Below are positions 46,110 through 61,058 of a DNA stretch of 64,000 nt, piece by piece. The stretch covers positions 248,157 through 312,156 of the forward strand of contig NZ_LMRP01000002.1 of the NCBI RefSeq assembly GCF_001426185.1, read 5' to 3'. Within the stretch, counting starts at the first letter, position 1. Every line of letters starts with the position of its first letter. The notes beneath the pieces are model-generated. The model did no database searches. It had not been told where the DNA came from and saw nothing but the letters and a program-made list of their open reading frames with translations. The position numbers were made by a program, and so were the translations under genes. Source of the stretch: Rhodococcus sp. Leaf247. Its GTDB lineage: Bacteria > Actinomycetota > Actinomycetes > Mycobacteriales > Mycobacteriaceae.

Positions 46110-47297
46110 TCAGACGATGCCGGCGTCATGGAGTGACCGCACTTCTTCGCCGCTGTATCCGAACTCCCCGAGAACAGCGTCGGTGTCGGCTCCGTGCGAA
46201 CGTCCGGTATGCCGGATGCTGCCCGGGCTCACCCCCATCCGCCACATGACGTTCTGCATCCGCACGGGACCCAGATCGTCGTCGTCGACCGTGGTTACCA
46301 TTTCGATGGCGTTGACCTGAGGGTCGTCGAGAAGCTCGCTCGGCTTGTACACCGGGGCGACGGCCGCACCCGCTGCTTCGAACGCCGCGATGACGTCGTC
46401 CCGCGTGCGTTCCCCGATCCAGCCACCCACGTAGCCGTCGAGCAAATCAGCGTGGGCAGCTCGTTGCCGGCCGGTGGCGAACCACGGCTCGTCGAGCACC
46501 TCGGGGTGGCCGACCAACCTCAGAACTCGTTCGGCGATGGAGTTGGCGCTGGTCGAAATGGCCAACCAGTGTCCGTCCATCGTCTTGTAGAGATTGCGCG
46601 GTGAGTTGTTGCTGGATCGATTGCCGGTGCGCTCCTGATCGATGCCCAACTGGTCGGCATAGATGACGCCGGGCCCGACGGCCGTCATGATGGGACTGAG
46701 CAGATCGAGATCGATCTCCTGCCCCCTCCCCGTCTTCACCCGGTGCAGCAGCGCCATGGAGACCGCCGACGATCCCGCGATGCCCGCCAGCGAATCCGCG
46801 AGCCCGAACGCCGGAAGTGTCGGCGGTCCGTCGGCCGAGCCGGTGAGATGCGCGAAGCCGCTCATCGACTCGACCAAGGTGCCGAAGGCGGGACGCGAGG
46901 AGTACGGGCCCGTCTGACCGAAGCCGGTGACACGCAACAAGATCAGGCCCGGGTTGATCGCGGACAGGACGTCGTATCCCAGTCCCCACTTCTCGAAGGT
47001 GCCGGGCCGGAAGTTCTCGACGACGACGTCGGACTCGGCGACCATCTTCTTGAACACCTCGGCGCCCTCGGGCTTGCCGAGATTCAGCGTCATTCCGCGC
47101 TTGTTCCGGCTGACCATGGTCCACCACAGCGGGTGGCCGTCCTTGTCCAGGCCGTGACCGCGCATCCCGTCGGGCTTGGTGGGGTGCTCGATCTTGATGA
47201 CGTCTGCACCGAAGTCACCGAGGATCTGCGCGACCAGCGGCCCCGCGAGAATTGTCGACGCGTCGAGTACCCGGATTCCCTCGAGTGGGCCGGTCAC
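46110..47297 (-). CDS. class III (CaiB/BaiF) CoA-transferase
   Basis: 395 residues from GTG 47297, overlapping the hydantoinase-like gene stop. Family motifs: GPLEGIRVLDASTILAGPLVAQILGDFGADVIKIEHP, SRNKRGMTLNL, VVENFRPGTFEKWGLGY and GLADSLAGIAGSS, where Asp168 corresponds to the catalytic aspartate. It moves CoA between carboxylates and is the probable activation step of the pathway encoded here. Last gene of a nine-gene minus-strand run that starts with the binding protein at 55449. Confidence 0.9.
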   Translation of the reverse strand: MTGPLEGIRVLDASTILAGPLVAQILGDFGADVIKIEHPTKPDGMRGHGLDKDGHPLWWTMVSRNKRGMTLNLGKPEGAEVFKKMVAESDVVVENFRPGTFEKWGLGYDVLSAINPGLILLRVTGFGQTGPYSSRPAFGTLVESMSGFAHLTGSADGPPTLPAFGLADSLAGIAGSSAVSMALLHRVKTGRGQEIDLDLLSPIMTAVGPGVIYADQLGIDQERTGNRSSNNSPRNLYKTMDGHWLAISTSANSIAERVLRLVGHPEVLDEPWFATGRQRAAHADLLDGYVGGWIGERTRDDVIAAFEAAGAAVAPVYKPSELLDDPQVNAIEMVTTVDDDDLGPVRMQNVMWRMGVSPGSIRHTGRSHGADTDAVLGEFGYSGEEVRSLHDAGIV

Positions 47298-48760
47298 TTG
47301 TAGGGCCTGTGCAGGTAGCGGCCGGTCGGCTCCCCCGCCACGGACCCGTTGTCGAGCACGCGATGTCCACGCACGAATGTGTCGGTGACCTTGGCACCCA
47401 ACTCGAAGCCTTCGAAGGGGGTGTACTCCTGCGTCGACTCGGAGTCCTCGGGACGCACGGTCCACGTGTGGTCGGGATCGACGAGGGCGAGGTCCGCGTC
47501 CATGCCGACGGCGATCTCACCCTTGCCCGGAAGTCCGTATCGGCGAGCGGGATTGAGAGAGGTGAGCTCGGCGATACGGCGCCAGCTCAGCCCACGCTTG
47601 CGGCCTTCGCTGACCAGTCCCGGCAGCAGGTACTCGGCGCCGCCGAATCCGGACTTCGCGGCGAAGATGTCACCGCGGTCCTCGGCGAACTTCTTCTCGT
47701 CCTTGCAGCAGGCATGGTCACTGACCACCCAGTCGATGTCGCCGCCGAGCAGGTGCTCCCACAGCGCCTCGACGTCGTCGCGCGGACGCAGCGGCGGGTT
47801 GACCTTGCCGCCCAGGCCGTAGGCGGTGTCGATGTCGGCGAGCAGGTGACCGATGGTGACCTCGCGACGGAAGTTCACGTGCGGGAACGCCTTCGCCATC
47901 CGCATCGCGGCAGTGAGGGCCTTCCGGGAGGAGAGGTGCAGCAGGTTGATGTTGGGCAGCTGCGTCTCGTCGGCGAGGAACGACGCGATGGTGACCGCGA
48001 GGCCCTCGGAATGCGGCGGCCGGGAGGCGCTGTAGGCGGCGAGACCGGTGAGCGTTCCCTCCTCCTCGACGAGCTTGGTGTACGCGCTCATGATCTCGGC
48101 GGTCTCGCAGTGCAGCGACAGCGAGATGTGATCCGCCTTGTCGCCGAGCTGCTCACGGGCCGCCTGGATGCCGCGCATGACGAACTCGAAGTGAGCGAGG
48201 TCGTAGCGCTCGCCCTCGGGAGTCATCAGGAATTCGCTCTGGTCGGTCGAGCGGCCGTGCAGACCGTGGCTGCCGTAGAACATGAAGATCTTGAACGACG
48301 TCACACCGTGATCGGTGATGAGCGAGGGGATCTCGGCGATGTGCTCCTTCGACATCGGCGCCAGGTGGTACGCGTAGTCGACGAACGGCTTGCCCTCGGT
48401 GGCCTCGAGCACCGTCGGGAAGACGTCGGCGTACGAGCCGCCGGTGTTCATGTAGTACTGGCCGGTGCGCATGTAGGACAGCGACGTGGTCACGCCGCCC
48501 TGCACGCAGGCGCGGGATTCGGTGTAGGCGTCTTCGCCCAGCGGGTTGTAGATACCCCAATGCTGGTGTGCGTCGACAACTCCGGGGAAGGCGACCTTGC
48601 CGGCCGCGTCGATGACCGTGTCGGCCTCGGCGGCGTCGATTCCGGCCTCGATCCGGGTGAACTTGCCGTCTTCGACGAGCAGGTCCAGGAATGCGCCGTC
48701 CTCGGGATGATCGGCGCCCGGACGTACGACTCGGGCGTTGGTGATCAGAAGCTTCGTCAT
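47294..48760 (-). CDS. hydantoinase/dihydropyrimidinase-like amidohydrolase
   Basis: 488-residue cyclic amidohydrolase with a full binuclear metal set: DAHQH at 63-67, Lys157 (carbamylation site in SFKIFM), His217 (SLHCET), His275 (LLHLSS), Asp348 (SDHACC). Family members open cyclic amides (hydantoins, dihydropyrimidines, allantoin, imides). The substrate loop (GSHGLHGRSTDQSEF) is unlike the standard dihydropyrimidinases, so substrate is open. Co-located with a racemase-like protein, CoA-transferase and flavoprotein. Confidence 0.9.
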   Translation of the reverse strand: MTKLLITNARVVRPGADHPEDGAFLDLLVEDGKFTRIEAGIDAAEADTVIDAAGKVAFPGVVDAHQHWGIYNPLGEDAYTESRACVQGGVTTSLSYMRTGQYYMNTGGSYADVFPTVLEATEGKPFVDYAYHLAPMSKEHIAEIPSLITDHGVTSFKIFMFYGSHGLHGRSTDQSEFLMTPEGERYDLAHFEFVMRGIQAAREQLGDKADHISLSLHCETAEIMSAYTKLVEEEGTLTGLAAYSASRPPHSEGLAVTIASFLADETQLPNINLLHLSSRKALTAAMRMAKAFPHVNFRREVTIGHLLADIDTAYGLGGKVNPPLRPRDDVEALWEHLLGGDIDWVVSDHACCKDEKKFAEDRGDIFAAKSGFGGAEYLLPGLVSEGRKRGLSWRRIAELTSLNPARRYGLPGKGEIAVGMDADLALVDPDHTWTVRPEDSESTQEYTPFEGFELGAKVTDTFVRGHRVLDNGSVAGEPTGRYLHRPYK

Positions 48761-48772
48761 GACAATCCTTCT

Positions 48773-50140
48773 CTAGTGATGGGAGTCGGCCGCGACACCG
48801 GCGGCCAGATACGCGAGTCCGAGGGCAGGGAGCAGACCGTTCCCTGCGAGGTAGCCGGCGGCGCCGTGACCGGAGATGCCCATGGCTGCGCCCCCGGATG
48901 CGAAGAGGCCGTCGATGGCCGTGCCGTCCGGGCGGAGTACCCGAGCGGTGCCGTCGACGACGAGACCGCCCTGGGTGTGGAACAGAGCGGGCACGATGCG
49001 TACGGCGGCGTACGGGGCGGTGAGCTCATGCTCGAACGAGCTGCGTCCGAACGGATCCTGCGCCTCGCCGCGAGCGTACTGCTGCACCGCCGCCATCTCC
49101 TCGACCACCGCCTCGACGGGTAGTCCGGTCGCGGCGGCCAACGCGGAGAGGTCGTCCGCCCACACGACGGCACCGGACTCCACCGTCTGGCGGAAGTCGG
49201 TGAAGGACAGACACTTGTCGTGGATGTCCTTGTCGATGACGATCCAGCCCTCGGAATCCGGCCGGGCCGCCAGATGGGCGGCGTACTCCGAATAGCCCGT
49301 CGTCTCGTCTCCGAAGCGGCGGCCCGTCACGTCCAACACGACGCCGCCGTGCATGATCGTCGCCCACCCGACCAAGGTCGACGCCTTCTTCGACAGCGCG
49401 GCGTGGCCTTGATACGAGTCGAGGTAGGCCGAGGCCGCACCGAGCCGATCACCGATAGCCAGTGCATCGCCCCGCGAGTACTCGCTGCCGTGGTACCGAG
49501 CGTCGGCGATCTCCGGGACATGCTCGGCGACGCGGTCGTGATCGCCGCCGTACCCGTTGGTGGCCAACAGGACTGCACCTGTCGGAATCGTCTCGGTCGT
49601 CCCGTCGGGCAGTGTGACGACGGCACCGCGGACACGACCGTCCTCGATGACGACGTCGGTGAGGCGCGCCGGCGAGAGCACGTCGATGCGAGGGTTCTCG
49701 GTCACCGCCCGCACCAGGTGGTCGAGCAGAATGCTGCCGTGTCGACCCTCGACGGTGTGGCAGCGCAGGGCCGAGTGACCCGGGTATGCGAAGTCGGTCA
49801 CCAACGTGAGTGGGATGGACAGATGGTCCGCCATCCATTCGACCAGCGGCGCACTGACATCGGCCAGAGCCTGCGCCAGATCACGGTCCGCGGAACCCTT
49901 GGTCTTGCGCATCACGTCGTCGACGAACATCGCCGGCGAATCCTCGATCCCCGCCTCTTCCTGCCAGCGCGATCCGGCACCGGGAATCATGGCGGTCGAC
50001 ATCGCGGTGTTGTTGCCCCGCTTGAAGTGTTCGCTGGCCTCGACCACCAGGACGTCGAGTCCCAGCTCGGCGGCACGCAGGGCCGCGACGAGGCCTCCGC
50101 CGGCGCCCGCGACGACCAGATCGGGTCCGTCCTCGCTCAT
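48773..50140 (-). CDS. fumarate-reductase/KstD-type FAD-dependent dehydrogenase
   Basis: 455 residues. N-terminal FAD loop LVVAGAGGGLVAALRAAELGLDVLVVEA with the usual Ser/Thr-rich FAD segment (GNNTAMSTAMIPGAGS). A cap domain runs at ~230-350 and the C-terminal FAD motif LFASGGAAMGISGHGAAGYLAGNGLLPAL. Relatives include tricarballylate dehydrogenase, fumarate reductase and ketosteroid dehydrogenases, which introduce or remove a C=C next to a carbonyl. Here it probably desaturates the imported acid or ring. Coupled (ATGA) to the racemase-like gene. Confidence 0.88.
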   Translation of the reverse strand: MSEDGPDLVVAGAGGGLVAALRAAELGLDVLVVEASEHFKRGNNTAMSTAMIPGAGSRWQEEAGIEDSPAMFVDDVMRKTKGSADRDLAQALADVSAPLVEWMADHLSIPLTLVTDFAYPGHSALRCHTVEGRHGSILLDHLVRAVTENPRIDVLSPARLTDVVIEDGRVRGAVVTLPDGTTETIPTGAVLLATNGYGGDHDRVAEHVPEIADARYHGSEYSRGDALAIGDRLGAASAYLDSYQGHAALSKKASTLVGWATIMHGGVVLDVTGRRFGDETTGYSEYAAHLAARPDSEGWIVIDKDIHDKCLSFTDFRQTVESGAVVWADDLSALAAATGLPVEAVVEEMAAVQQYARGEAQDPFGRSSFEHELTAPYAAVRIVPALFHTQGGLVVDGTARVLRPDGTAIDGLFASGGAAMGISGHGAAGYLAGNGLLPALGLAYLAAGVAADSHH

Positions 50141-50769
50141 GCCGCCGCCTCGAGATCGGCGGTCAAGGCCAGCAATCTCAGCGCGGTAGCCGTCGGGTCG
50201 ACGACCAGAGGTCGGGTGCGTGGTCCCGTCAGATCGACCGCGGAGCAGGCGTTGATGGCTACCGAACTCGACAGCCGCTGTGCGTGAACGGTGACCGCAT
50301 CGGCCCATGCCTGTGAGTCGGCGATGTCGTCGAACGAGAGGTCCATGACCGTGGTCGGTTCGGCATCGATGCCGTACCCGGCCAGCCGACGGTCCAACTC
50401 CGCAGCGATCGCCCCGTTCCGCGCGAGTGCGCCGATGCGGTGACCCTGGGATGCGTAGAACGACGCGGTCAGCCGGGACAGGCCGAACATCGGCCGGGCG
50501 AAGGAGTCGAACCGGTCGGCGCACGGGTCCAGGACACAGTCCGGGAGGAAGCCGTCGAAGCCCTCCAGGTCGGCAGTGGAGAAGGCCTCCGTCAGCACTG
50601 CCTCGGACCGGCGGACATCCGCCTCGGTGTCGAGAGCGCGGGGAGCGTCCGGACCGATGTTGCGGAGGACGACGGTCAGTCCGGCGGGGCTCAGGGCGTC
50701 GTAACGCTCCTGGCGGCGGCGGAACTCGGTGAAGTCGACGTGGATGGGGGTGTATGCGAGCAATCGCAC
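50137..50769 (-). CDS. Asp/Glu/hydantoin racemase-superfamily protein
   Basis: 210 residues from GTG 50769 (AGGAG 7 nt upstream). The superfamily fold shows paired half-site cysteines: LPDCVLDP (~residue 80) and INACSAVDL (~residue 175), the acid/base Cys positions of Asp/Glu racemases, maleate isomerases and hydantoin racemases. Next to a hydantoinase-like gene a racemase or cis-trans isomerase role is plausible. N-terminal LLAYTPIHVDFTEF. Shorter than glutamate racemases (~265). Confidence 0.75.
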   Translation of the reverse strand: MRLLAYTPIHVDFTEFRRRQERYDALSPAGLTVVLRNIGPDAPRALDTEADVRRSEAVLTEAFSTADLEGFDGFLPDCVLDPCADRFDSFARPMFGLSRLTASFYASQGHRIGALARNGAIAAELDRRLAGYGIDAEPTTVMDLSFDDIADSQAWADAVTVHAQRLSSSVAINACSAVDLTGPRTRPLVVDPTATALRLLALTADLEAAA

Positions 50770-50797
50770 GGGGAAACTCCTGACGAGAGATGCGGCA

Positions 50798-51502
50798 TCA
50801 GATGCCGAGGTACGCCGCCTTGACACGATCGTCGTGGGCGAGCTCTGCACCGGTACCGGTGAGCACGATGGTTCCGCTCTCGATGACATAGGCACGGTCC
50901 GAGATCGCGAGTGCCTGAGCTGCGTTCTGCTCGACGATCAGCACCGTCACACCGGTTTCCCGGATGCGCACGATGGCGTCGAGTACCTCGGCAGCGAGCT
51001 TGGGTGCGAGACCCACCGACGGCTCGTCGAGGGTGAGCACCCGCGGCTTCGACATCATCGCGCGACCGATCGCCAGCATCTGCTGCTGACCGCCGGACAT
51101 GGTGTCCGCGCGTTGAGTCCGTCGTTCCGCGAGGATCGGGAACAGTTCGAACACTCGGTCCAGCGACTCCTTCATTGAGCCGCGCTTCTGGGTGTAGGCA
51201 CCCATCTCGAGGTTCTCCGACACCGGCAGGCTGCCGAACAGGGCTCGATCCTGCGCGACGTGCACCAGACCGGACTTGACGATTCTGTCGGCGCGATTGC
51301 CACTGATGTCGGTGCCGTCGAGCACGATCCGTCCCTTGGACGGTGCCACCAGGCCCGACAGCGCACGCAGAGTAGTCGTCTTGCCGGCACCGTTCGCGCC
51401 GATGAGGGAGACGATCTCATTCTTGTCGAGATGCATCGTGACGCCGTGCAGGATCTCGAGCCGTCGGTAGCCGGCGTGAAGATCGTCGATCTCGAGCATC
51501 AT
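50798..51502 (-). CDS. LivF-type ABC transporter ATP-binding protein
   Basis: 234 residues: Walker A GANGAGKTT, Q-loop AQDRALFGSLPVSENLEMGAY, signature SGGQQQMLAIGRAM, Walker B VLTLDEPSVGLAP. Second ATPase of a five-part branched-chain-type (HAAT) importer. ATG 51502 overlaps the LivG stop. The importer belongs to the catabolic operon, so its substrate is probably the pathway's starting compound and not leucine. Confidence 0.92.
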   Translation of the reverse strand: MMLEIDDLHAGYRRLEILHGVTMHLDKNEIVSLIGANGAGKTTTLRALSGLVAPSKGRIVLDGTDISGNRADRIVKSGLVHVAQDRALFGSLPVSENLEMGAYTQKRGSMKESLDRVFELFPILAERRTQRADTMSGGQQQMLAIGRAMMSKPRVLTLDEPSVGLAPKLAAEVLDAIVRIRETGVTVLIVEQNAAQALAISDRAYVIESGTIVLTGTGAELAHDDRVKAAYLGI

Positions 51503-52218
51503 GCGCTCTCCTCACCCAGGTAGGCCTCGACGACGCGGTGGTCCTCGATCACGGTGCGTGGATCCCCCGCCGTCAGAACTGCGCCTTCGTGCATGACGAC
51601 GAGACGCTCCGACAGGGCCATGACCGCAGCCATGATGTGTTCGACGAACAGGACTGTCTGCCCGCCGCTGTGCAGCGACCGCAGCAGGTCGATCATCGGA
51701 GCACGTTCTGCCGGAACGAGTCCCGCCAGAACCTCGTCGAGAAGCACGACGCGCGGTTCCATCGCCAGTGCTCGCGCCAACTCGAGACGCTTGAGTCCCG
51801 CAGTGGACATGGTCGACACCTTGCCGCCCACCTGATCGGAGAGCTGCACCCGATCGAGGACGTCGAGTGCGTGGCGACGAGCATCGCCGCGGGACTTGCG
51901 CTTCGACAGCGCGGCGATGGTCACGTTCTCGAGAACCGACATCGACTCGAACGGCCGCATCAGCTGGAATGTGCGCACCAGGCCGGCACGCGCGATCTTG
52001 TCCGCAGGCCATCCGGTGATGTCGGTGCCGTCGAAGATCACCCGTCCCGACGTGGGCGGCTGCTCGCCGGCCAGCAGGGAGAACAGGGTGGTCTTCCCGG
52101 CCCCGTTGGGGCCGATGATTCCGAGGAACTGCTCGTCCGGGACGTCGATGCTGACGTCGCGCACCGCGTGGATGCCGGAGAACGATTTGCTCAGATTCTC
52201 GATACTGAGGACGCTCAC
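51499..52218 (-). CDS. LivG-type ABC transporter ATP-binding protein
   Basis: 239 residues from GTG 52218 (GTGA overlap with LivM). Walker A GPNGAGKTT, Q-loop FQLMRPFESMSVLENV, Walker B VVLLDEVLAGL. The ABC signature is degenerate: STAGLKRLELARAL in place of LSGGxxQ, and the Walker B has EVLAG instead of EPxxG, both known for LivG branches. Works with the LivF partner. Confidence 0.9.
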   Translation of the reverse strand: MSVLSIENLSKSFSGIHAVRDVSIDVPDEQFLGIIGPNGAGKTTLFSLLAGEQPPTSGRVIFDGTDITGWPADKIARAGLVRTFQLMRPFESMSVLENVTIAALSKRKSRGDARRHALDVLDRVQLSDQVGGKVSTMSTAGLKRLELARALAMEPRVVLLDEVLAGLVPAERAPMIDLLRSLHSGGQTVLFVEHIMAAVMALSERLVVMHEGAVLTAGDPRTVIEDHRVVEAYLGEESA

Positions 52219-53252
52219 TTGCGCCACCTCTCGCGAATCGTGCCGAAGATCCCCTTGGGCAGGAAGATCACGATCAGGATCAGGATCACCGAGTACACGG
52301 CCACATCCAGACCGATGGAGCCCTGGAGGAACTCGAGGAATGCCGGAGGGTTCCGCAGCAGCTGGTTGATCAGCTCCGACAGCGGTCCGATGACCGCGGC
52401 GCCGAGAACCGGTCCCCAGATGGTGCCGATGCCGCCGATGACGGCCGGCACGATGGCCTCCACGGACACCGCGGACCCGAAGGCCTGCTCCGGTCCGACG
52501 AAGAAGTAGTACTGCACGTAGTACACGCCGGCAACGGCGGTCAGCGCGCAACTCGCTGCGACGGCGATCAAGCGGTACTTCATCGTGTCGATGCCCAACG
52601 AGGCTGCGGCGGTGGCGTCGTCACGGATGGCCTGCACGTACTGACCCGGCCGCGAGCGGACGTAGAAGATGGTGCCGAGTACGGCCAGCGCCAGGATCAC
52701 CAGCGGGATCCAGATGTAGTTGGGACTGCCCTTCTCGAACTGCAGCATCCACCACGAATCACGCGGCAGGATCGGCACATTGAAGCCCTCGGTCTTGTTG
52801 AAGACCTCGAGGTTCTGTACCAGCAGCAGGAACATCTGCGCGAACGCGAATGTCGCGAGGGCGAAATACGATCCGGCGAGCCGGTAGCGCAGGCACAGAT
52901 ACGCGATCAGCGTGCCCACGGCGGCGGACAGCACGGCGGCGACGAGCATCGAGATCCACGGCGAGATGCCGTGTTCCACGAGCAGGTAGGCCCCCGTGTA
53001 CGCGCCGATGCCGAAGAACGCAGCATGGCCGAAGCTGAACATTCCGCCGAACCCGCTCATGAGGTTCCAGCCGACGGCCATGACCGCGAAGATCAGGGTC
53101 CGCACGGCCACGGTCTGCGCCTGCTCGCCCAGCACCAGCGGGAACGCAGCGACGACGACGAAACCGATGACGAGAGTGAGCAGTTGGCGACGGAGCCACG
53201 TGTCCTTCAGACGAGTCTCCGGCGGCGCGGATGCGGGTGTCGTGGTGGTCAT
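52215..53252 (-). CDS. LivM-type ABC permease
   Basis: 345 residues, about 9-10 membrane segments. FGGMFSFGHAAFFGIGAYTGAYL is the LivM signature and SLGIDTMKYRLIAVAASCALTAVAGVYY the coupling helix region. Overlaps LivH upstream and LivG downstream by GTGA/ATGA. A long loop (KTEGFNVPILPRDSWWMLQFEKGS) is family-typical. Confidence 0.92.
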   Translation of the reverse strand: MTTTTPASAPPETRLKDTWLRRQLLTLVIGFVVVAAFPLVLGEQAQTVAVRTLIFAVMAVGWNLMSGFGGMFSFGHAAFFGIGAYTGAYLLVEHGISPWISMLVAAVLSAAVGTLIAYLCLRYRLAGSYFALATFAFAQMFLLLVQNLEVFNKTEGFNVPILPRDSWWMLQFEKGSPNYIWIPLVILALAVLGTIFYVRSRPGQYVQAIRDDATAAASLGIDTMKYRLIAVAASCALTAVAGVYYVQYYFFVGPEQAFGSAVSVEAIVPAVIGGIGTIWGPVLGAAVIGPLSELINQLLRNPPAFLEFLQGSIGLDVAVYSVILILIVIFLPKGIFGTIRERWRK

Positions 53253-54232
53253 CGGCGTCCTCCGTACAATCCTTCGGGCTTGAGAAAGAGCACCATGACG
53301 AACACCGCGAACACGAGGATCAGCGAGCCGGTACCGGGGAGGTAGAGCGCACCCACGGTCTGTACGAGGCCGATGACGATGCCCCCGACCATGGCTCCGA
53401 CGACACTGCCCAGCCCGCCGAGGACGACGATCACGAACGCGAGGATCGTGAACTGCTCACCCACCGACGGCGTGAGCGAGGTGAACGGCGTCATCAACCC
53501 GCCGGCCACCGCGACACAGGCCGCGCCGATACCGAACGTCAACGCGTACACCCGGCCGATGTCGACGCCGACCAGCTTGGCGCCTTCCGAGTTGGACGCG
53601 ACAGCGCGGATGGACAACCCCAGTCGTGTTCGCTCGAGCACCGACTTCAGCGCGATCGCGACGACCGCAGCACCGATGAAGGCGAGCACCCGCGGCCAGG
53701 CCGCGACCGTCCCGAAGATCGACAGCGAGCCGTCGACCGGTGCCGCAACGGATTTGGGGCGTCCACCGAAAACCATCAACAACACGTTGATGATCAGCAG
53801 CGACAGTCCGAGCGTCACCAACAGTGGGCCCTCGTGACTGCCGCCGATGGTGAGCTTGGTCAGCAGCGTCGCCTGGACGACCATGCCGAAGACGAACATC
53901 ACCGGCACTGCCAGCAGCGTCGCCAGATAGACGGGTAACCCGGCTGTCGACAGTGCGTAGACGATGTACATCGCGAGCGTGAGCATGGCGCCCTGGGCGA
54001 AGTTGACGATGCCCAGCACACCGAAGATGAGCGTGAGTCCGACGGAGATCAGCGCGTACACGCCGCCCAGCAGCAGCCCGGAGACGATGGCCTGACCCAC
54101 CAGACCCTGATCCTTGCCGCCGACGAAGAAGACGACGGCGAGGATGATCACCAGGGCTCCTCCGACCGCGACGCCGGGATTCACTGCGCGGTGGCTCTTC
54201 TCCGCGGCGGCACCCTCGGCGACTACCGTCAC
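53249..54232 (-). CDS. LivH-type ABC permease
   Basis: 327 residues from GTG 54232. About 8 membrane segments; GLLLGGVYALISVGLTLIFGVLGIVNFAQGAMLTL is the LivH hallmark and NSEGAKLVGVDIGRVYALTFGIG the coupling region. Overlaps the binding-protein stop. The first ~20 residues are hydrophilic. Confidence 0.92.
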   Translation of the reverse strand: MTVVAEGAAAEKSHRAVNPGVAVGGALVIILAVVFFVGGKDQGLVGQAIVSGLLLGGVYALISVGLTLIFGVLGIVNFAQGAMLTLAMYIVYALSTAGLPVYLATLLAVPVMFVFGMVVQATLLTKLTIGGSHEGPLLVTLGLSLLIINVLLMVFGGRPKSVAAPVDGSLSIFGTVAAWPRVLAFIGAAVVAIALKSVLERTRLGLSIRAVASNSEGAKLVGVDIGRVYALTFGIGAACVAVAGGLMTPFTSLTPSVGEQFTILAFVIVVLGGLGSVVGAMVGGIVIGLVQTVGALYLPGTGSLILVFAVFVMVLFLKPEGLYGGRR

Positions 54233-55449
54233 CGGCCCGCTCCGACAGGGAACTCGATCGCGTCGGTGGCGAACTCGTCCGGGAACACCTGGGCGACCTG
54301 ACCGTCCTTCACCTGCATGACGATGACCGTCGCGTTGGTGTTCTGGCCGGTCTCGTCGAACTGGATGGGACCGGAGAAGGCGAGCAACGGATCCTCGATG
54401 GTGACGCCGGAGATGGCTTCGCGCAACGCTTCCGGGTCTGCATCCGCACCGTCGTCCAGGCCTGCGGCGATGACCTCGACCGCCTGGTACGACAGCATGG
54501 CTGCCGTCTCCATGGGGCGACCGTACTTCTCCTCGAACCGCGACCGGATGTCGTTGACGCGGTCGCTGGTGGCGTCGAAGTGGTAGTTCGCCGACAGCAC
54601 GCCCTCACCCGCGGCACCGGCGGCAGCGGGGAACGAGCTGTCGTCGAACGCGCCGTTGGCAATTCCGTAGACGCCCTTGACGTTCACGTTCAGCTGCTGC
54701 ACCGCGTTGGCGATGAGCAGACCGTCCGGGTAGTACCCCGTGGCGACGATGACGTCCGGGTTGGACACGGCCGCTTCCCGCACCTGGGTGGTGGCGTCGG
54801 AGAAGTTGGTGGCCGGGTAGGTGATCTCCTGGACCGACGAGATGCCCTGGTTCGCGGCTTCCTTCTCGAACGCGTCGAACACGCTGTCGCCGAAGGACCC
54901 TTCGATGTGCAGGTAGGAGACTCGGTCGATGGCCTGACCGGTCTGCTTCTCGATCGCGGCGAGCGCCTTCGCGCCGTCCGTGCCCATGCTCGACGCATTG
55001 GGCTGGATCCGGAACGCGTACTGGTAGCCCTGATCGAGGATCTTGTCGTCGACGGCGACGTCGATGACCAGCGGGACGCGCGAACGCTCGGCGACCGAGG
55101 CGACGTTCTGCGTGACGTCGCTCTGGTAGGTGCCCACCAGGGCCACGGCGCCGTCGTCGATGAGCCGCTGCGCTTCGCTCTGCCCGACCTCGGCCTTTCC
55201 CTGACTGTCACCCGTCACCAGCTCGAGCGTGCGACCGTCCATGGACGCGATCCCGCCGGCCGCGTTGATGTCCTCGACCGCCAGTGCCGCACCGTCGTTC
55301 ATCAGCCCACCGACTCCGGCGAGTGCGCCCGTGGTGGGGTGGACGGCTCCGATCTTGATCGGACCCGAACCGTCGGAGCCCGAGGAGGATCCGCATGCGG
55401 CGGTGCCCAGTAGGGCTACCGCGGCGAGAACGCCTACGACTTTTCTCAT
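54229..55449 (-). CDS. LivK-type substrate-binding lipoprotein
   Basis: 406 residues from ATG 55449. Signal peptide with lipobox TAACG (Cys ~19) and Ser/Gly linker, then a type I periplasmic-binding fold: IKIGAVHPTTGALAGVGGLMNDGAALAVEDINAAGGI, VGTYQSDVTQNVASVAE and YLHIEGSFGDSVFDAF. First gene of the minus-strand operon. Two IclR-type palindromes lie 73-200 bp upstream in the region shared with the regulator gene. Confidence 0.92.
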   Translation of the reverse strand: MRKVVGVLAAVALLGTAACGSSSGSDGSGPIKIGAVHPTTGALAGVGGLMNDGAALAVEDINAAGGIASMDGRTLELVTGDSQGKAEVGQSEAQRLIDDGAVALVGTYQSDVTQNVASVAERSRVPLVIDVAVDDKILDQGYQYAFRIQPNASSMGTDGAKALAAIEKQTGQAIDRVSYLHIEGSFGDSVFDAFEKEAANQGISSVQEITYPATNFSDATTQVREAAVSNPDVIVATGYYPDGLLIANAVQQLNVNVKGVYGIANGAFDDSSFPAAAGAAGEGVLSANYHFDATSDRVNDIRSRFEEKYGRPMETAAMLSYQAVEVIAAGLDDGADADPEALREAISGVTIEDPLLAFSGPIQFDETGQNTNATVIVMQVKDGQVAQVFPDEFATDAIEFPVGAGR

Positions 55450-55538: not shown

Positions 55539-55605
55539 ACCGAAGTGGCACCTGATCCCCCTTGCACCTGAGTATGGCACGGCTCACTGGGTCAGAACAG
55601 GCTCT

Positions 55606-55633
55606 TTGATGACTTTCTTGTTACGGGTATGGT
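55606..55633 (+). promoter_or_regulatory. promoter of the iclR-type gene
   Basis: TTGATG (55606-55611), 16-bp spacer, TATGGT (55628-55633). The -10 box overlaps the start of operator B, giving autorepression. Confidence 0.5.
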
Positions 55634-55647
55634 TCGCTCAGCGGAAC
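55631..55647. promoter_or_regulatory. IclR-type operator B (regulator side)
   Basis: GGTTCGCTCAGCGGAAC: perfect right arm and central CTnAG; overlaps the -10 region of the regulator gene 47 bp upstream of its start. Confidence 0.7.
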
Positions 55648-55693
55648 GCTCCGAAGCCGCGCGGGCGTTCGCACGATGTGGAAGGTTAGCCAT

Positions 55694-56491
55694 ATGGCAC
55701 CGACTCCCAGCTCGAAGGTCGTACTCGAGTCCACCGGAACCGAATCCGCGGATCGAGTCGCGGACGTCCTGCTCGCCTTCTCCCAGTCCGATCGCGCACT
55801 GGGGGTCTCGGAACTGGCCCGCCGCCTCGACCTGAGCAAGGCCGTCGTCCACCGGATCCTGCAGTCGCTCTCGTCCCGATCCATCGTCCAACCGGTGACC
55901 GGGGAATCCACGTACTCGCTGGGGCCCGCCGCCATCGGCCTGGGCACGAAGGCGTGGAGCCAACTCGACGTCAGGTCCATCGCCGCACCGATTCTGCGGC
56001 GCCTGCGCGCGGAGACGCGGGAAACTGCGACGCTGTCCGTCCTCGTCGGGCACAGACGCGTCTACCTCGACCAGTACGAGAGCCCACAGGAAGTGAAGAT
56101 GGTGGTCGAGATCGGACCCCAGTATCCGCTGCACTCCGGTGCATCGAGTCGCGCGATCCTGGCCTTCCTCCCCCCGCACTATGCCGACGAGGCGTTCGAG
56201 GAACTGAGCGGAACCACTCCCGACACCGACCGCTCGATTTTCCTGTCGCGGCTCGCCGAGATCCGCGACATCGGCTACGGCACCTCGATCAACGAGCGCA
56301 ACACCGGCGCCGCGTCCATCGCCGCGCCGTTCTTCGACGCGGCGGGCCACGTCCTGGGGTCGGTCAGCTCGTCCGGGCCCGCGTTCCGCTATTCCTCGAC
56401 GGCCGACGACGATCACACCGTCCACGCAGGTCAGGTACTCGCCGCGGCGCATGCCATCACGCAGAGCCTCGAGGCCAGGGCTACCCGATGA
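55694..56491 (+). CDS. IclR-family regulator of the catabolic cluster
   Basis: 265 residues from ATG 55694 (GGAAGG 8 nt upstream). Winged HTH at ~18-75 (RVADVLLAFSQSDRALGVSELARRLDLSKAVVHRILQSL) and an IclR effector domain at ~90-260 (YLDQYESPQEVKMVVEIGPQYPLHSGASSRAILAF, GYGTSINERNTGAASIAAPFFD). Divergent from the importer operon and coupled to the CitE-like gene (ATGA). The 17-bp palindromes here and at 59590/59723 are its likely sites, tying both gene groups into one regulon. Confidence 0.92.
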   Translation: MAPTPSSKVVLESTGTESADRVADVLLAFSQSDRALGVSELARRLDLSKAVVHRILQSLSSRSIVQPVTGESTYSLGPAAIGLGTKAWSQLDVRSIAAPILRRLRAETRETATLSVLVGHRRVYLDQYESPQEVKMVVEIGPQYPLHSGASSRAILAFLPPHYADEAFEELSGTTPDTDRSIFLSRLAEIRDIGYGTSINERNTGAASIAAPFFDAAGHVLGSVSSSGPAFRYSSTADDDHTVHAGQVLAAAHAITQSLEARATR

Positions 56492-57306
56492 CGCGTCGTG
56501 TGCCCCGGTCCTTCCTGTACGTGCCGGCCGTCAAACCGGCCCTCTTCGACAAGGCCGCGGCAGGCCCCGCGGACGCGATCATCATCGACCTCGAAGACGC
56601 AGTTCCGCTCACCCACAAGGACACTGCACGTGCCGACGTCTCCCGATGGTTGGACACACGACCCGACGCGCGCGCCGAGATCTGGATTCGCGTGACTCCC
56701 GAATTTCTCCGCCAGGATCTCGCCGCGGCTGCGAGGCCCCGAGTCGCCGGCATCATCGTCGCGAAGTGTTCGGCTACGTCGTTGTCCGACGCCGACGACC
56801 TGCTGGCCGGCACCGACATCGCGCTGGTCGGGCTCATCGAGACGGCAGCGAGCCTTCGCGACATCCCGTCGATGGCGTCCCGACCACGGGTGCAGACTTT
56901 CGGAATCGGTGAGGTGGATCTTCTCGCAGACCTGCGCATCACCCGGGGCGACACCACCCGTCACGTCGTCGACGCGATACGCACCGATGTGGTGATCGGC
57001 TGCGCCGCAGCGGGTCTCGACGCACCGATCGCGCCCACGTCGACAGACTTCCGCAATCTCGACGCCTTCGTCGCCACCACCCAGCAGTTCGTCGACATGG
57101 GCTTCCGGTCCCGGACAGCGGTGCATCCGACACAGGTCCCGGTGATCAACGCCGCCCTGACACCGTCACCGGACGACGTGCGTCGGGCGGCGCGCCTCGT
57201 CGAACTGTTCGACGCCGCGGCCGGAGGTCCAACTGTCGACGACGACGGCAGGTTCGTCGACGAGGCCGTCGTGCGCGGGGCCAGGGAAATCCTGGCCCGC
57301 GCCTGA
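56488..57306 (+). CDS. CitE-like lyase (HpcH/HpaI aldolase family)
   Basis: 272 residues, ATG overlapping the regulator stop. CitE/Mcl features: RSFLYVPAVKPALFDKAAAGPADAIIIDLEDAVP (Mg2+/CoA region), RVTPEFLRQDL, GLIETAASL (catalytic Glu) and GFRSRTAVHPTQVPVIN. Stand-alone members cleave citramalyl-CoA, malyl-CoA or similar beta-hydroxyacyl-CoAs. With the CoA-transferase it forms a plausible activation-cleavage pair yielding central metabolites. Ends convergent with the PrpD-like gene. Confidence 0.88.
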   Translation: MTRRVPRSFLYVPAVKPALFDKAAAGPADAIIIDLEDAVPLTHKDTARADVSRWLDTRPDARAEIWIRVTPEFLRQDLAAAARPRVAGIIVAKCSATSLSDADDLLAGTDIALVGLIETAASLRDIPSMASRPRVQTFGIGEVDLLADLRITRGDTTRHVVDAIRTDVVIGCAAAGLDAPIAPTSTDFRNLDAFVATTQQFVDMGFRSRTAVHPTQVPVINAALTPSPDDVRRAARLVELFDAAAGGPTVDDDGRFVDEAVVRGAREILARA

Positions 57307-58740
57307 TCAGCTCGACGGACGAGCGGCCGGCTCGAGCCGACGAAGTGGGTCGAGAAGTGTTCCGACGTCGGTGATGCCGGGGAGTGTGGCGCACAGGGCG
57401 GCGAAGTCCGTTGCCGCCGAATCCTGGAGTAACCCGGTGACGTTGGCGGTGAACTTCGCGCGTACGTCGTCGAAGGACAACGGTCGGTCCGGCCCTCCAC
57501 GGGTGGTCAGGACTTCCTCGACCACGGTGGCGCCGTCGTGGAGATGAGCCGTCAGCACAGCCGGGAACTGATGCGGGAAGATCGCATCGCAGCGTTCGTC
57601 GGGAACGACGTCGACGCGCGCCATGATCTCTCGCCGCTGCGTCGACGTCGCCTTCTCATCGGTGTAGTCGTCGAGAGCTGCTCCGAGTCCCCCACCGCCG
57701 AGCATTCCCACCGCCACGGCGTACGGGCCGCTGAACTGTGCCATGTATCCCGTCTGCGGGGTCCGCTTCACCTCGATGGGCTCACCGATGGTGCGAAGGT
57801 TGGCGGCCGGCACCCCCAGAGCGTACCGGCGTACGTCGTCCGGGGTGATGCCCCGGTTCCTCAGTGCCGCAGCCGCATCGATGGCCGCATGCGTGAAGTG
57901 ATTCGCCGGATAGGGCTTGAAGAAGATGCCGGGTGCCGCCCAGCGGTCACCGAGTCCGTCCGTGATCTCCTCACCGCGACCCGACTGGTGCAGCCACGCC
58001 TGGAAGAACCCGAACCTGCCCTCCAGCACGGTCGGGGGGCCGGTGATGCCGTGGCGTGCCAGCCCGGCGGCGGACACCGCGGAGTGCGCCGCCCATCCAC
58101 AGTGCAGGCGTTTGACCGTGCCACCCGTGCGGTTGGCTTCGATGATGCCGGCTGCCATCGACGCGGCGATACCCAGCGCGTCGACGATTCCGTCGGCCGA
58201 TGCGCCTCCGATGACGGCCGCGGCGACGGCGCCACCCATGGCTCCACAGATGGACGTCGCATGTTGACCGTGCTCGAAGAACACGGAATTCTTGGTCTCC
58301 GGGTCGAAGCCCACCATGCCGAGGCGCACGCAGACCTCGAGGCCGATCGCAATGCCGCGCACCAGATCACGGCCGGTCGCACCGTGGTGCTGGGCAGCAG
58401 CGAGTGCCGCCGGAACCACGCTCGCGCTCGGGTGCAGCACCGACGGAAGATGCGTGTCGTCGAAGTCGAGCGAATGGGCCAACACTCCGTTCACGAACGC
58501 GGCCAGCGTCGGGGGGAGTTTCTCCCGCACACCGACGGCGGAGGCAACGGCGTTGCCGCCTTGTTCCGTGGCCCACGAGATGGCGGCCTTGCTCGTCTCC
58601 AGCTCCGTCGCGGCGACGGCGATACCGAGAGTGTCGAGGACTCGCAGGCCGACGCTGTCGACGACGTCCGTCGGCAGCGAATCGAAGGTCGAGTCGACGG
58701 CGAATCGTGCCAGATGCTGCGCCAGCGTGGTGTCCGTCAT
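57307..58740 (-). CDS. MmgE/PrpD-family protein 1
   Basis: 477 residues from ATG 58740, overlapping the cyclase stop. MmgE/PrpD pattern: LRVLDTLGIAVAATELETSKA, NGVLAHSLDFDDTHLPSVLHPSASVVPAALA (active-site His region), KRLHCGWAAHSAVSAAGLA and FKPYPANHFTHAAIDAAAAL. The family includes 2-methylcitrate dehydratase, cis-aconitate decarboxylase and iminodisuccinate epimerase. Exact reaction unknown. Second of two such proteins in the cluster. Confidence 0.9.
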   Translation of the reverse strand: MTDTTLAQHLARFAVDSTFDSLPTDVVDSVGLRVLDTLGIAVAATELETSKAAISWATEQGGNAVASAVGVREKLPPTLAAFVNGVLAHSLDFDDTHLPSVLHPSASVVPAALAAAQHHGATGRDLVRGIAIGLEVCVRLGMVGFDPETKNSVFFEHGQHATSICGAMGGAVAAAVIGGASADGIVDALGIAASMAAGIIEANRTGGTVKRLHCGWAAHSAVSAAGLARHGITGPPTVLEGRFGFFQAWLHQSGRGEEITDGLGDRWAAPGIFFKPYPANHFTHAAIDAAAALRNRGITPDDVRRYALGVPAANLRTIGEPIEVKRTPQTGYMAQFSGPYAVAVGMLGGGGLGAALDDYTDEKATSTQRREIMARVDVVPDERCDAIFPHQFPAVLTAHLHDGATVVEEVLTTRGGPDRPLSFDDVRAKFTANVTGLLQDSAATDFAALCATLPGITDVGTLLDPLRRLEPAARPSS

Positions 58741-59549
58741 GCCGACACCACCGCGAGCGGACGGACCGGCGAGCCTGTTGCTCCGAAGATGTTGAGCGGC
58801 ACCAGGACGAACGTGAACTCGTACGTCCGGGTGCGTGCCAACTCCTCGAGGTCGAGAGCCTCGATGATGTAGATGCCACTCTCCACGAGCAACACTCGAT
58901 GCGCCGGCAGCAGCGCGTGGCCGCCGCCGGGAGCGAGCCTCTCGAAGGCGATGGTGTCCGCACCCGCTGCATGGATGCTGCGGGCCGCGAGCCACGTCGC
59001 GCCGGCCTCGCTCACTCCGGGAACACCTGACGGTCCCCCCACATACGGCTGACCCTCGTCGAAGATCTGCGCCCATCCACTGCGGATGAGGACGACGTCC
59101 CCGGCACGAATCTCGACTTGTTCGGCAGCGCAGGCGGATTCGAGGTCGTCGACGGTGATCTCCTCGCCGCCTTCCAGACGATCGACGCCTCGGACGCTCG
59201 GGATGTCCAGCAGGACACCGCGTCGCATCATCGGGGCGATGGTGTGCACCCCGAGTTCGACGTACTTGCCGCCGATCCCGGCCTCGACCGCGTCGACTCC
59301 GCCGTGCATCTTGCCGTCGTGCGACACGTGAGCGAGGGCATCGATGTGGGTGCCGACGTGCGTGCCCGTGGTGATCATGTCGTTCGCCGCGCTTCCGCCG
59401 TCGGCACGCGTCATGTCACCGTGCCGACGCGGCAGGGTGTGCCAGAACTGCGGGTGGTTCGGCGACTGCGGCATGCCCACGCGGAGCTGGCGACCGAGAT
59501 CCACCGTACGAATACCGGCCGTGACGGCCTCGAGAAGTCTGTCCGACAT
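58737..59549 (-). CDS. cyclase-family metal-dependent hydrolase
   Basis: 270 residues. Cyclase/KynB-type metal motif: HVGTHIDALAHV (His-x3-His-x-Asp) with DMITTG before and HDGKMHGG after, plus GDVVLIRSGW and GGGHALLPAHRVLL. Family reactions include kynurenine formamidase and isatin hydrolase, i.e. amide or ring hydrolysis. Kynurenine work is unlikely here because the kyn genes are elsewhere with their own hydrolase. Coupled to MmgE/PrpD 1 and divergent from MmgE/PrpD 2. Confidence 0.88.
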   Translation of the reverse strand: MSDRLLEAVTAGIRTVDLGRQLRVGMPQSPNHPQFWHTLPRRHGDMTRADGGSAANDMITTGTHVGTHIDALAHVSHDGKMHGGVDAVEAGIGGKYVELGVHTIAPMMRRGVLLDIPSVRGVDRLEGGEEITVDDLESACAAEQVEIRAGDVVLIRSGWAQIFDEGQPYVGGPSGVPGVSEAGATWLAARSIHAAGADTIAFERLAPGGGHALLPAHRVLLVESGIYIIEALDLEELARTRTYEFTFVLVPLNIFGATGSPVRPLAVVSA

Positions 59550-59589
59550 GAGCTGTGTATCTCCTCTAGCTGAGCCGACCGGGGTTCCT

Positions 59590-59606
59590 GTTCCGCTGAG
59601 CGGAAT
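59590..59606. promoter_or_regulatory. IclR-type operator C
   Basis: GTTCCGCTGAGCGGAAT, 16 of 17 positions of the palindromic consensus, 40 bp upstream of the cyclase gene. Confidence 0.8.
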
Positions 59607-59669
59607 CGCTGACGCAGCGGTTCCGATGGCAGTCAGACTAACAGGAGCAGCGGTTTCACGGCGGTTATC

Positions 59670-59698
59670 TTGACCGCCCCGCACGCCATGCTTAGCGT
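59670..59698 (+). promoter_or_regulatory. promoter of MmgE/PrpD gene 2 (leaderless)
   Basis: TTGACC (59670-59675), 17-bp spacer, TAGCGT (59693-59698), then 7 nt to ATG 59706 with no Shine-Dalgarno sequence. Spacing predicts a transcript starting at or next to the start codon. Confidence 0.7.
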
Positions 59699-59705
59699 TA
59701 CCCGC

Positions 59706-61058
59706 ATGAGCCTTGCAGAGACGTTCCGACCAGCGGAACGCGTCCGCGACGCCGTCGACAGGCTGGCAGCCTTCGCGGCAGCCCTCGAGGACCGGTCGAT
59801 CGCACACGACACCCGGGTCGGCACCGTTCTGCTGGATCTCCTGGGGGTCACGCTGGCGGGCGCGCGAACCCCCGAGGTGACGGCGATGACGGCCCGATGG
59901 CGGTCCGAGCCGGGCAGTTCGTCGACGATCGGGCGCGCGGTCACGACGACGGCGGAGACCGCGTCGTACCTCGACGCCGTCGCGTCGTGCTGCCTGGAAC
60001 TGGACGAGGGAAACAAGTACGCGGCGGGTCATCCGGCAGCGCACGTCGTTCCGGCAGCCATCGCCGCGACACGCCTCGCCGACGGACCTGTGCCGGGCAC
60101 CCGGTTCCTCGCCGCCGTCGTGGCGGGGTACGAGGTGGCCACCCGATTCGGCGCGGCCCTGACACGCGATCCTCGCTGGCACACGCACGGCCATTGGGGT
60201 GCGACGGGCGCCGCCACCGCCGCCGCGGTGATCTGGCAACTCGACGCCGACCGCACTGCGGCCGCGATCGACGCATCGACCGCCCTGGTGCACGTGGCGC
60301 CGTGGGATGTGGTGCTGGCCGGGAACTTCGCCCGCAATCTCTGGATCGGCGGTGCCGTGCGCGCCGGTCTGGACGCGGCGCGACTGGCAGCCTCAGAACT
60401 GGTGCACAACAACGGGGCTGCCTCGTCGACACTCGGCGACATCGTCGGTTCTCTCGATCCGGTCGCGCTGTCCCTCGATCCGGACGGTGTCTTCGCCATC
60501 GATCAGGGGTACGCCAAGCGTCACGCGAGCTGTTCGTACACGCACGCCGCGGTGGACACCGTCTACGGATTGCGTCCGTCGTTCGACGCTCGGCACGTCG
60601 CCGCAGTACATGTCCGCACGCACGCATTGGCCGAGCCGCTGTTCCAAAGACACCCGGAGACACGACTCGAAGCGATGTTCTCGTTGCCCTTCGTCGTGGC
60701 TGCGGCGATGACGAACGACCGGATCGACGCGGACGCACTGACACCGCAGACGGACTCCTTCCGCCGTGCCGAGGACTTCAGTGCGCATGTGCACGTCGAG
60801 TCGTCGCCGGATCTCACCCGCCTGCTCCCCGATCGACGCGCCGCGGAAGTCGACGTCGTCCTGACGACGGGCGAGGTGCTGTCGGCCGGGACGCCCAACC
60901 CCGTGGGCGACGTGGACCATTTCCCCCTCGACGACGCGCAGGTGCTGGCCAAGATCGAACTGCTCGTCGGTCGGGAGGACGCCGCGACGATCGATCGTGT
61001 CGTCGCGGACCTCGCGGGATCGACGGATGTCGCCGAGATCCTGCGCGCGCTGCCGTGA
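59706..61058 (+). CDS. MmgE/PrpD-family protein 2
   Basis: 450 residues from ATG 59706. DTRVGTVLLDLLGVTLAGARTPEV, CCLELDEGNKYAAGHPAAHVVPAAIA (active-site region), THGHWGATGAATAAAVIW and KRHASCSYTHAAVDTVYGL follow the family plan, but it is clearly divergent from protein 1 (450 vs 477 residues, different active-site loop). It may be an epimerase, decarboxylase or dehydratase acting on a different intermediate. Operator D lies inside its first codons. Confidence 0.88.
   Translation: MSLAETFRPAERVRDAVDRLAAFAAALEDRSIAHDTRVGTVLLDLLGVTLAGARTPEVTAMTARWRSEPGSSSTIGRAVTTTAETASYLDAVASCCLELDEGNKYAAGHPAAHVVPAAIAATRLADGPVPGTRFLAAVVAGYEVATRFGAALTRDPRWHTHGHWGATGAATAAAVIWQLDADRTAAAIDASTALVHVAPWDVVLAGNFARNLWIGGAVRAGLDAARLAASELVHNNGAASSTLGDIVGSLDPVALSLDPDGVFAIDQGYAKRHASCSYTHAAVDTVYGLRPSFDARHVAAVHVRTHALAEPLFQRHPETRLEAMFSLPFVVAAAMTNDRIDADALTPQTDSFRRAEDFSAHVHVESSPDLTRLLPDRRAAEVDVVLTTGEVLSAGTPNPVGDVDHFPLDDAQVLAKIELLVGREDAATIDRVVADLAGSTDVAEILRALP
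59723..59739. promoter_or_regulatory. IclR-type operator D (within start of MmgE/PrpD 2)
   Basis: GTTCCGACCAGCGGAAC; outer arms perfect, two inner mismatches. At about +17 to +33 of the predicted transcript it would block elongation. Confidence 0.6.

Follow-up and report, generated by a model that had tools for sequence, protein, structure and literature searches.

Organisation of the cluster

Positions 46110–61058 of the window (the whole stretch of Rhodococcus sp. Leaf247 DNA analysed here, 64,000 nucleotides of contig NZ_LMRP01000002.1) are occupied by 14 tightly packed genes, for which an initial annotation, made from the letters alone, had proposed an undescribed catabolic cluster under the control of an IclR regulator. 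Working from the low-numbered end upwards, the genes are as follows:

caiB, 46110–47297, minus strand: class III coenzyme A (CoA) transferase, GTG start (PF02515, 374 bits)
hyd, 47294–48760, minus strand: cyclic amidohydrolase from the dihydroorotase/allantoinase/hydantoinase superfamily that falls in none of the named subfamilies
fad, 48773–50140, minus strand: FAD_binding_2 flavoenzyme with a G-Y-S motif replacing the fumarate-reductase arginine
rac, 50137–50769, minus strand: Asp/Glu/hydantoin racemase-like protein with two conserved cysteines (C78, C175)
livF, 50798–51499, minus strand: ATPase of a branched-chain-type ABC importer (PF00005, 107.5 bits; synteny)
livG, 51499–52218, minus strand: ABC importer ATPase (PF00005, 95.3 bits; synteny)
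livM, 52215–53252, minus strand: ABC importer permease (PF02653, 152.4 bits)
livH, 53249–54232, minus strand: ABC importer permease (PF02653, 119.8 bits)
livK, 54229–55449, minus strand: substrate-binding protein of the importer (PF13458, 185.6 bits)
iclR, 55676–56491, plus strand: IclR-family regulator (PF01614 and PF09339), with an alternative ATG at 55694
citE, 56488–57306, plus strand: CoA-ester lyase of the CitE/HpcH family (PF03328)
mmgE1, 57307–58740, minus strand: MmgE/PrpD protein of the aconitate decarboxylase / IDS-epimerase branch
cyc, 58737–59549, minus strand: Cyclase-family hydrolase of the isatin hydrolase / kynurenine formamidase superfamily (PF04199)
mmgE2, 59706–61058, plus strand: second, different MmgE/PrpD protein (PF03972 and PF19305)

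A single minus-strand run reads livK-livH-livM-livG-livF-rac-fad-hyd-caiB, the plus-strand pair iclR-citE, the minus-strand pair cyc-mmgE1 and the lone plus-strand mmgE2 making up the rest. The near-complete translational coupling first noted for the locus is plain to see: neighbouring genes overlap by 1–4 bases at eight of the ten same-strand junctions, with the remaining two gaps measuring 12 and 28 bases, and GC content at the third codon position is 0.81–0.89 across all 14 genes. The caiB start compatible with its overlap is the GTG at 47297, not 47465; that of cyc is the ATG at 59549, one codon upstream of the position (59546) used in part of our analyses.

When the 14 proteins were scanned against Pfam, gathering scores were passed for CoA_transf_3, Amidohydro_1, FAD_binding_2, Peripla_BP_6, IclR_C/HTH_IclR, HpcH_HpaI, MmgE_PrpD (twice), Cyclase, ABC_tran (twice) and BPD_transp_2 (twice). 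The families originally named here are thus borne out by Pfam and by fold, though Rac misses its Pfam threshold (Asp_Glu_race, 21.9 against 31). Ten of the cluster proteins were also scanned against NCBIfam, for which the best 25 of 56 matches were listed; each has either no match or falls below the cut-off of every model among those listed.

The ends of the cluster lie where they had been placed, since the flanking genes adjoin it at few of the other loci compared in the genus: the DUF4185 protein at 44139–45407 and the Pfam-unmatched protein at 61747–62862 in 5/17, and the Excalibur protein at 61080–61745 in 4/17.

Co-inheritance within the genus and beyond

Searches of 151 whole genomes (37 from the same genus, window included, and 114 others) returned some related amidohydrolase in every one; hyd orthologues, at 68% identity or above, are confined to 18/37 genus genomes and 9/114 of the others. 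At orthologue-level E-value limits, fad occurs in the same 18 genus genomes as hyd, with mmgE1 and cyc each found in 17, all among those bearing hyd. The single discordant genome (G014) carries a truncated fad beside hyd and caiB, the block from rac through to cyc being gone; its locus (L035, G014:C6:50152-70115) retains caiB, hyd, the truncated fad and mmgE2, and so represents a natural deletion within the cluster. The full 14-gene set is present at 16/17 of the other loci compared in the genus. The set is therefore inherited as a single unit within the genus and, being kept or lost as a block, amounts to more than a chance grouping. The initial annotation had named dispersal of the genes into unrelated neighbourhoods in relatives as the finding that would speak against it; instead they stay together in the genus and mostly beyond. 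In other families (L048–L056, L066–L069) the same genes are mostly found together in a changed order; one stretch (G057) is without rac, mmgE2 and the Liv genes, another (G103) without those and fad, and a third (G139), a contig of just 6 kb, bears four of the genes.

A wider survey, by profile search of genome contigs, yielded 385 confirmed relatives, of which the best, 80 named loci, have 69–94% identity. Counts refer to 81 loci: the named loci less L137 and L145, whose lower GC meant that our simple caller, based on GC at the third codon position, yielded no genes, plus the window and two plasmids. As the caller missed some genes (hyd itself in L078, for example) and the 10-kb flanks cut many clusters, the following are lower bounds: hyd was called in the stretch at 80 loci, caiB at 63, iclR at 57, mmgE1 at 49, cyc at 47, citE at 42, fad at 39, rac at 30, mmgE2 at 27 and livK at 24. 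Where both partners were called, same-strand adjacency is the rule for cyc/mmgE1 (43/45), mmgE2/rac (26/27) and fad/hyd (38/39); in the window itself mmgE2 and rac are not adjacent. Across Actinomycetota the set thus persists in altered arrangements.

Three types of importer occur: Liv, an MFS protein at 19 loci (fad being present at each), and an NMT1/THI5-type ABC system; the permease family of the last is found at 11 loci, with fad at none of them (0/11). Six NMT1/THI5-type loci bear an M20 hydrolase, and several a short-chain dehydrogenase together with an alpha/beta hydrolase. An isochorismatase relative is seen at four actinobacterial loci (L133, L139, L144, L146), accompanied at three of these by an HMG-CoA-lyase relative. 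The Liv importer has been lost from R. gordoniae and several Nocardia, where fad, hyd, caiB, citE, cyc and mmgE1 remain together; the R. gordoniae plasmid pDND3A retains mmgE1-cyc-citE-iclR and fad-hyd-caiB, in the company of HyuAB, an amidase, a RipB-like MaoC protein (below cut-off) and a second CaiB and MmgE.

Hyd, Fad and Rac

Hyd has the metal site of a cyclic amidohydrolase, with all of the ligands first read from the window: H65, H67, K157, H217, H275 and D348 are invariant in 10/10 aligned orthologues, and we take these positions to form a binuclear site built from an HxH motif, a carboxylated lysine, two histidines and an aspartate. It nevertheless misses the NCBIfam cut-offs for allantoinase, dihydropyrimidinase, dihydroorotase and ErtD (all 25 listed of 56 matches lie below), the best score among the matches listed being that to AllB (213.0 against 357.85). 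An HQHWG motif marks the Hyd-type amidohydrolase subfamily, one of several unnamed subfamilies in this cluster.

Fad can be aligned to fumarate reductases and to urocanate reductase. The arginine of the TTRD/ERRD motif, the catalytic Arg402 of fumarate reductases, is aligned to G-Y-S in the window protein, in 43 of 44 aligned members and throughout a cross-phylum alignment (10/10); a second arginine, that of the C-terminal NRLGGN motif, is likewise replaced in the window alignment. Scores fall short of the NCBIfam cut-offs for both TcuA (123.9 against 369) and flavocytochrome c (214.2 against 285.45). Loss of the catalytic arginine suggests a neutral substrate, for example an intact ring, rather than a dicarboxylate, and weakens the fumarate-reductase-like desaturation of acids that had been envisaged.

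Rac has the two-domain, two-cysteine fold of the hydantoin, allantoin and Asp/Glu racemases; C78 and C175 are conserved in 27/27 members and probably constitute its catalytic pair. An AlphaFold2 model (predicted local distance difference test score of 95.8) has allantoin and hydantoin racemases as its closest folds, the Foldseek query TM scores to allantoin racemases being 0.74–0.79; arylmalonate decarboxylase and maleate isomerase rank lower. Allantoin and hydantoin racemases act on a ring C–H.

MmgE1, MmgE2, Cyc, CaiB and CitE

The two MmgE/PrpD proteins do differ, as had been proposed, sharing ~27% identity. MmgE1 finds its nearest solved structures in cis-aconitate decarboxylase and IDS epimerase, MmgE2 in a chain of B. 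subtilis IRG1. Across 53/53 aligned members, MmgE1 retains the positions of His103, His159, Lys207 and Lys272 of cis-aconitate decarboxylase, with Asn in place of His277 and Thr in place of Tyr318; all six are named as residues of that enzyme in extracts of two papers (PMC11814083, PMC12259180). Loss of His277 does not by itself rule out decarboxylation, since the fungal enzyme aCAD is also described without it (extract of PMC11814083). In favour of the cyclic-imide reading given below, ACOD1, itself an MmgE/PrpD enzyme, is reported to bind citraconate, a methylmaleate (extract of PMC12259180). The PrpD cut-off of NCBIfam is missed by MmgE1 (79.1 against 950), MmgE2 giving no match.

Among the matches listed, the best NCBIfam model for CaiB is succinate-glutarate CoA-transferase (233.6 bits, cut-off 750) and that for CitE is RipC (140.8, cut-off 375); the nearest solved chains to CitE are acyl-CoA, citrate and malyl-CoA lyases. 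RipB, the itaconyl-CoA hydratase, is absent from the cluster, the sole match in the genome scoring 151.7 against 340 bits and lying ~540 kb away.

Distant relatives outside the core set

The flavoenzyme recurs in more distant clusters along with elements of the same logic, namely an importer, unrelated ring openers, an amidase, a hydratase and a C–C lyase, the last being either CoA-dependent or methylisocitrate-lyase-like. In Methylobacterium the set, found on three plasmids, comprises a PrpB-like lyase (the one example scanned fell below cut-off), an isochorismatase, LivKHMGF, an MmgE, a FAD protein, another MmgE and a Hyd relative of 35% identity. Haloferax combines MmgE, Liv, FAD and LLM proteins with an isochorismatase, relatives of Hyd (32%) and CaiB (46%, beside the hyd relative), an HMG-CoA lyase and LeuCD-like subunits; Roseomonas has HyuAB, an isochorismatase-family hydrolase, a PrpB-like protein, MmgE and FAD, and Acidiphilium a PuuE-like CE4 enzyme (below cut-off), an isochorismatase, LeuCD, CaiB/HMGL and FAD. 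The flavoenzymes of Acidiphilium, Roseomonas, Tistrella and Neorhizobium are 42–46% identical to Fad, and the ring openers, hydratases or lyases around them differ. On two Burkholderia plasmids we find an MFS protein, an isochorismatase, CaiB (55–56%), CitE, MmgE1 (50–51%) and a distant Cyc; Shinella has a Hyd relative (34%), an isochorismatase, a PrpB-like lyase, an MmgE and two aconitases. All three PrpB-like proteins scanned score below cut-off.

The isochorismatase of M. nodulans is closest to the solved chains 3ot4/3uao, followed by N-carbamoylsarcosine amidase; 3uao is NicF, a maleamate amidohydrolase, according to an extract of PMC5806882. Candidate half-amidases (isochorismatase, amidase or M20 enzyme) recur in many sister clusters; the window has no such enzyme, save perhaps Cyc.

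A second, apparently CoA-independent type of cluster is seen at L057, L058, L059 and L159 (Nocardia, two other genomes and Novosphingobium), where Hyd relatives of 31–38% identity lie beside an isochorismatase and a PrpB-like lyase; the Nocardia locus (L057) adds a fad relative and two MmgE genes. Hyd relatives of similar identity also keep unlike company: the Halomicrococcus one lies with urocanate hydratase, the Aminobacter one mostly with other genes and, unexpectedly, a 35% one in Variovorax sp. PBL-E5 (L154:1-10356) with genes annotated for coenzyme F420 biosynthesis.

A candidate route and its alternatives

We read the cluster, tentatively and with a probability of roughly 0.4, as one that brings in a substituted cyclic imide with a ring of five or six members, or else a closely similar neutral N-heterocycle, and degrades it completely. 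LivKHMGF, identified by family, would import the ring compound; Rac, judging by its family and conserved cysteines, may epimerise the carbon adjoining a ring carbonyl, whilst the GYS-type flavoenzyme would set the oxidation state of the ring by desaturating or reducing next to the carbonyl. Hyd, with its intact metal site, is the candidate for opening the ring to a half-amide, from which an amide hydrolase would free ammonia; here this could perhaps be Cyc, and in relatives a maleamate-amidase-like enzyme of the isochorismatase type, an amidase or an M20 enzyme. MmgE1 and MmgE2 may then isomerise or hydrate an alkyl-substituted unsaturated dicarboxylate to a substituted malate, CaiB form its CoA ester, and CitE cleave this, yielding an acyl-CoA together with pyruvate or another 2-oxo acid, with IclR putatively sensing the substrate or an intermediate. 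The compound series would thus run from imide to half-amide, alkyl-maleate or -succinate, alkyl-malate, alkyl-malyl-CoA and finally acyl-CoA plus 2-oxo acid. The steps are suggested by the way in which distant relatives swap enzymes of matching function: across clusters, ring opening could fall to any of three unrelated enzyme types, amide hydrolysis to several, (de)hydration to MmgE or LeuCD/aconitase, and C–C cleavage either to CaiB with CitE or HMG-CoA lyase, or directly to a PrpB-like enzyme. A cyclic imide or lactam, as first proposed, remains the best substrate class, and a substituted imide accords best with these recurring steps; of the complete import-to-metabolite route also proposed, the co-inherited importer, ring opener, CoA activation and C–C lyase are supported, and the itaconate branch is not.

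Several observations weigh against a single imide route. A dedicated half-amidase is missing from the 14 genes of the window; casting Cyc in that role is a guess, and Cyc co-occurs with other amide hydrolases in R. gordoniae and at 6/6 loci with an M20 enzyme. The stretches of Neorhizobium and Tistrella, for which the PLSDB tables are incomplete, show neither an amidase nor a nitrogen-ring opener among their annotations. Hyd has allantoinases and hydantoinases for relatives no less than imidases, so that a cyclic ureide (a 5-substituted hydantoin, an allantoin-like compound or a dihydropyrimidine) has to be weighed as the ring; Rac would then racemise it, Hyd convert it to an N-carbamoyl acid, a carbamoyl hydrolase free the rest and the acid-handling enzymes finish the job. 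The nearest folds to Rac and the nearest profile to Hyd (allantoinase, 213 bits, among the matches listed) agree with this, as do the hydantoin-type alternative ring openers of relatives (HyuAB, PuuE-like CE4) and the N-carbamoylsarcosine amidase that is second among solved matches to the isochorismatase. Opening of a 5-substituted hydantoin, however, gives an N-carbamoyl amino acid, and the 14 genes include neither a transaminase nor an ammonia-lyase; no ureide model of NCBIfam is matched above cut-off (best 25 of 56); and MmgE, LeuCD, CaiB, CitE/HMGL and PrpB-like enzymes typically use non-amino carboxylic acids, IDS epimerase being the exception. On balance we regard a ureide as doubtful, if a serious contender. 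Of comparable, rather low standing is the idea that two pathways are packed together, a substituted-malyl-CoA module (caiB, citE, cyc, mmgE1) and a separate ring-opening one (liv, mmgE2, rac, fad, hyd), whether or not the second supplies the first. The halves can be separated: Streptantibioticus and the two Burkholderia have caiB-citE-cyc-mmgE1 with hyd and fad absent from the stretches read, hyd is found apart from those four genes in 12/81 stretches, some of them short, and fad is missing from all 11 loci with the NMT1-system permease. Against this, both halves are kept or lost jointly across the genus, and the Liv-less R. gordoniae and Nocardia clusters still hold genes of the two together.

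Two routes through aconitate fare worse. In a pyridine-derived scheme, a glutarimide carboxylate would be opened to tricarballylate and oxidised to aconitate; Fad does match tricarballylate dehydrogenase TcuA, albeit below cut-off, and Mycobacterium INA1 is said to break down isonicotinate via citrazinate, CoA activation and imide opening, with which the presence of the latter two functions would agree. We rejected the isonicotinate/citrazinate route, and hold the scheme as a whole to be very unlikely: of the 32 recurrent neighbour families, the 20 scanned include no molybdenum hydroxylase, searches of open-licence papers returned nothing on the pathway, aconitate would require neither CitE nor a second MmgE, and the catalytic arginine of Fad is gone. 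The initial annotation had suggested instead that an MmgE/PrpD enzyme decarboxylates aconitate to itaconate, which would proceed through itaconyl-CoA and citramalyl-CoA to acetyl-CoA and pyruvate. MmgE1 is indeed closest among solved structures to cis-aconitate decarboxylase and CitE to the RipC model (among the matches listed). The two substitutions of ACOD1 residues in MmgE1 count against this branch, with the reservation over His277 made above, as do a CitE score far below the RipC cut-off, the lack of an itaconyl-CoA hydratase in the cluster (its genome match being sub-threshold only) and the want of any role for hyd, rac and fad; we give it scarcely any weight.

Within the preferred cyclic-imide reading there is a slim chance that the substrate is a tetrapyrrole-derived alkyl-maleimide, for example hematinic acid (methyl, carboxyethyl-maleimide) of heme, bilins and chlorophyll. 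Since the triacid released by opening its ring is 2-methyl-cis-aconitate plus one carbon, enzymes of the PrpD, (homo)aconitase and methylisocitrate-lyase types would be needed; a CoA version would yield pyruvate and glutaryl-CoA, and the best (below cut-off) model for CaiB is succinate-glutarate CoA-transferase. Were this so, bacteria would have a way of degrading the final ring fragments left from heme and chlorophyll.

A link to tetrapyrroles through hemC, the sole genetic pointer to this reading, was considered and set aside. The gene is found close to the cluster relatives in Streptantibioticus cattleyicolor (L170:6797-7828) and Shinella (L073:21817-22749), and at these two only among the loci searched (L031 onward, plus the window). 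A PF01379 search found hemC in 44/45 genomes or records, with a second copy in 12 genomes; in these 12, the surroundings of the copy with the lower score (~10 kb on either side at most, shorter where a contig ends) hold no cluster gene beyond ABC-ATPase matches of 26–34%. As these second copies lie apart from cluster genes, we treat the two adjacencies as probably due to chance.

Other features of the window

At 16757–18787 the window encodes a fused class II aldolase and short-chain dehydrogenase, ~3 kb from parts of a sugar-type ABC importer (ATPase 9098–10624, binding protein 12721–13806), the ensemble resembling a sugar utilisation operon. A 439-amino-acid protein at 36026–37345 matches tryptophan 2,3-dioxygenase from residue 171, its N-terminal part lying outside the match.

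Relation to known pathways and significance

Literature searches, covering open-licence papers, found no published pathway with this gene set; the claim that no described pathway has it thus goes uncontradicted, and the cluster is real, probably undescribed and built of known enzyme superfamilies. Work on cyclic imides in Blastobacter and Aminobacter reportedly has an imidase opening the ring and a half-amidase following, the route ending in simple dicarboxylates. It resembles the present scheme in pairing a hydantoinase-family ring opener with an amidase that frees ammonia, whereas this cluster adds a flavoenzyme, a racemase, two MmgE/PrpD proteins, CaiB and CitE, and imidase activity here is putative. 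With the maleamate pathway of nicotinate breakdown (NicF, maleate isomerase) there are in common the NicF-like isochorismatase of sister clusters, going by the extract cited above, and the broad fold that rac shares with maleate isomerase; the 14 genes, however, include no ring dioxygenase or deformylase, and rac is nearer the allantoin/hydantoin racemases. The itaconate system RipABC (Ict/Ich/Ccl) likewise uses a CoA-transferase and a CitE-type lyase, but CitE here is under the RipC cut-off and RipB is not in the cluster. From the 2-methylcitrate cycle (PrpD, aconitase/AcnD, PrpB) come the parallels of MmgE/PrpD, aconitase-family and PrpB-like enzymes in sister clusters, set against the low PrpD score in the window and the sub-threshold PrpB-like proteins. 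Allantoin and hydantoin utilisation (allantoinase, racemase, carbamoylase) offers the nearest relatives of Hyd and rac, allantoinase and allantoin racemase; here the listed cut-offs are missed and the remaining genes are polycarboxylate and CoA enzymes.

If our reading is right, the cluster would represent a modular and widespread means of degrading cyclic imides or similar rings, parts of which occur in actinobacteria, alphaproteobacteria and a haloarchaeon, and in which the ring opener, amidase, hydratase and C–C lyase are swapped between unrelated families whilst one unusual flavoenzyme recurs. It would place the GYS flavoenzyme, the HQHWG amidohydrolase, the two-cysteine racemase and the cyclase that partners MmgE1 in a shared, testable context; automatic annotations in these genomes that read, for instance, dihydroorotase or fumarate reductase would be corrected.

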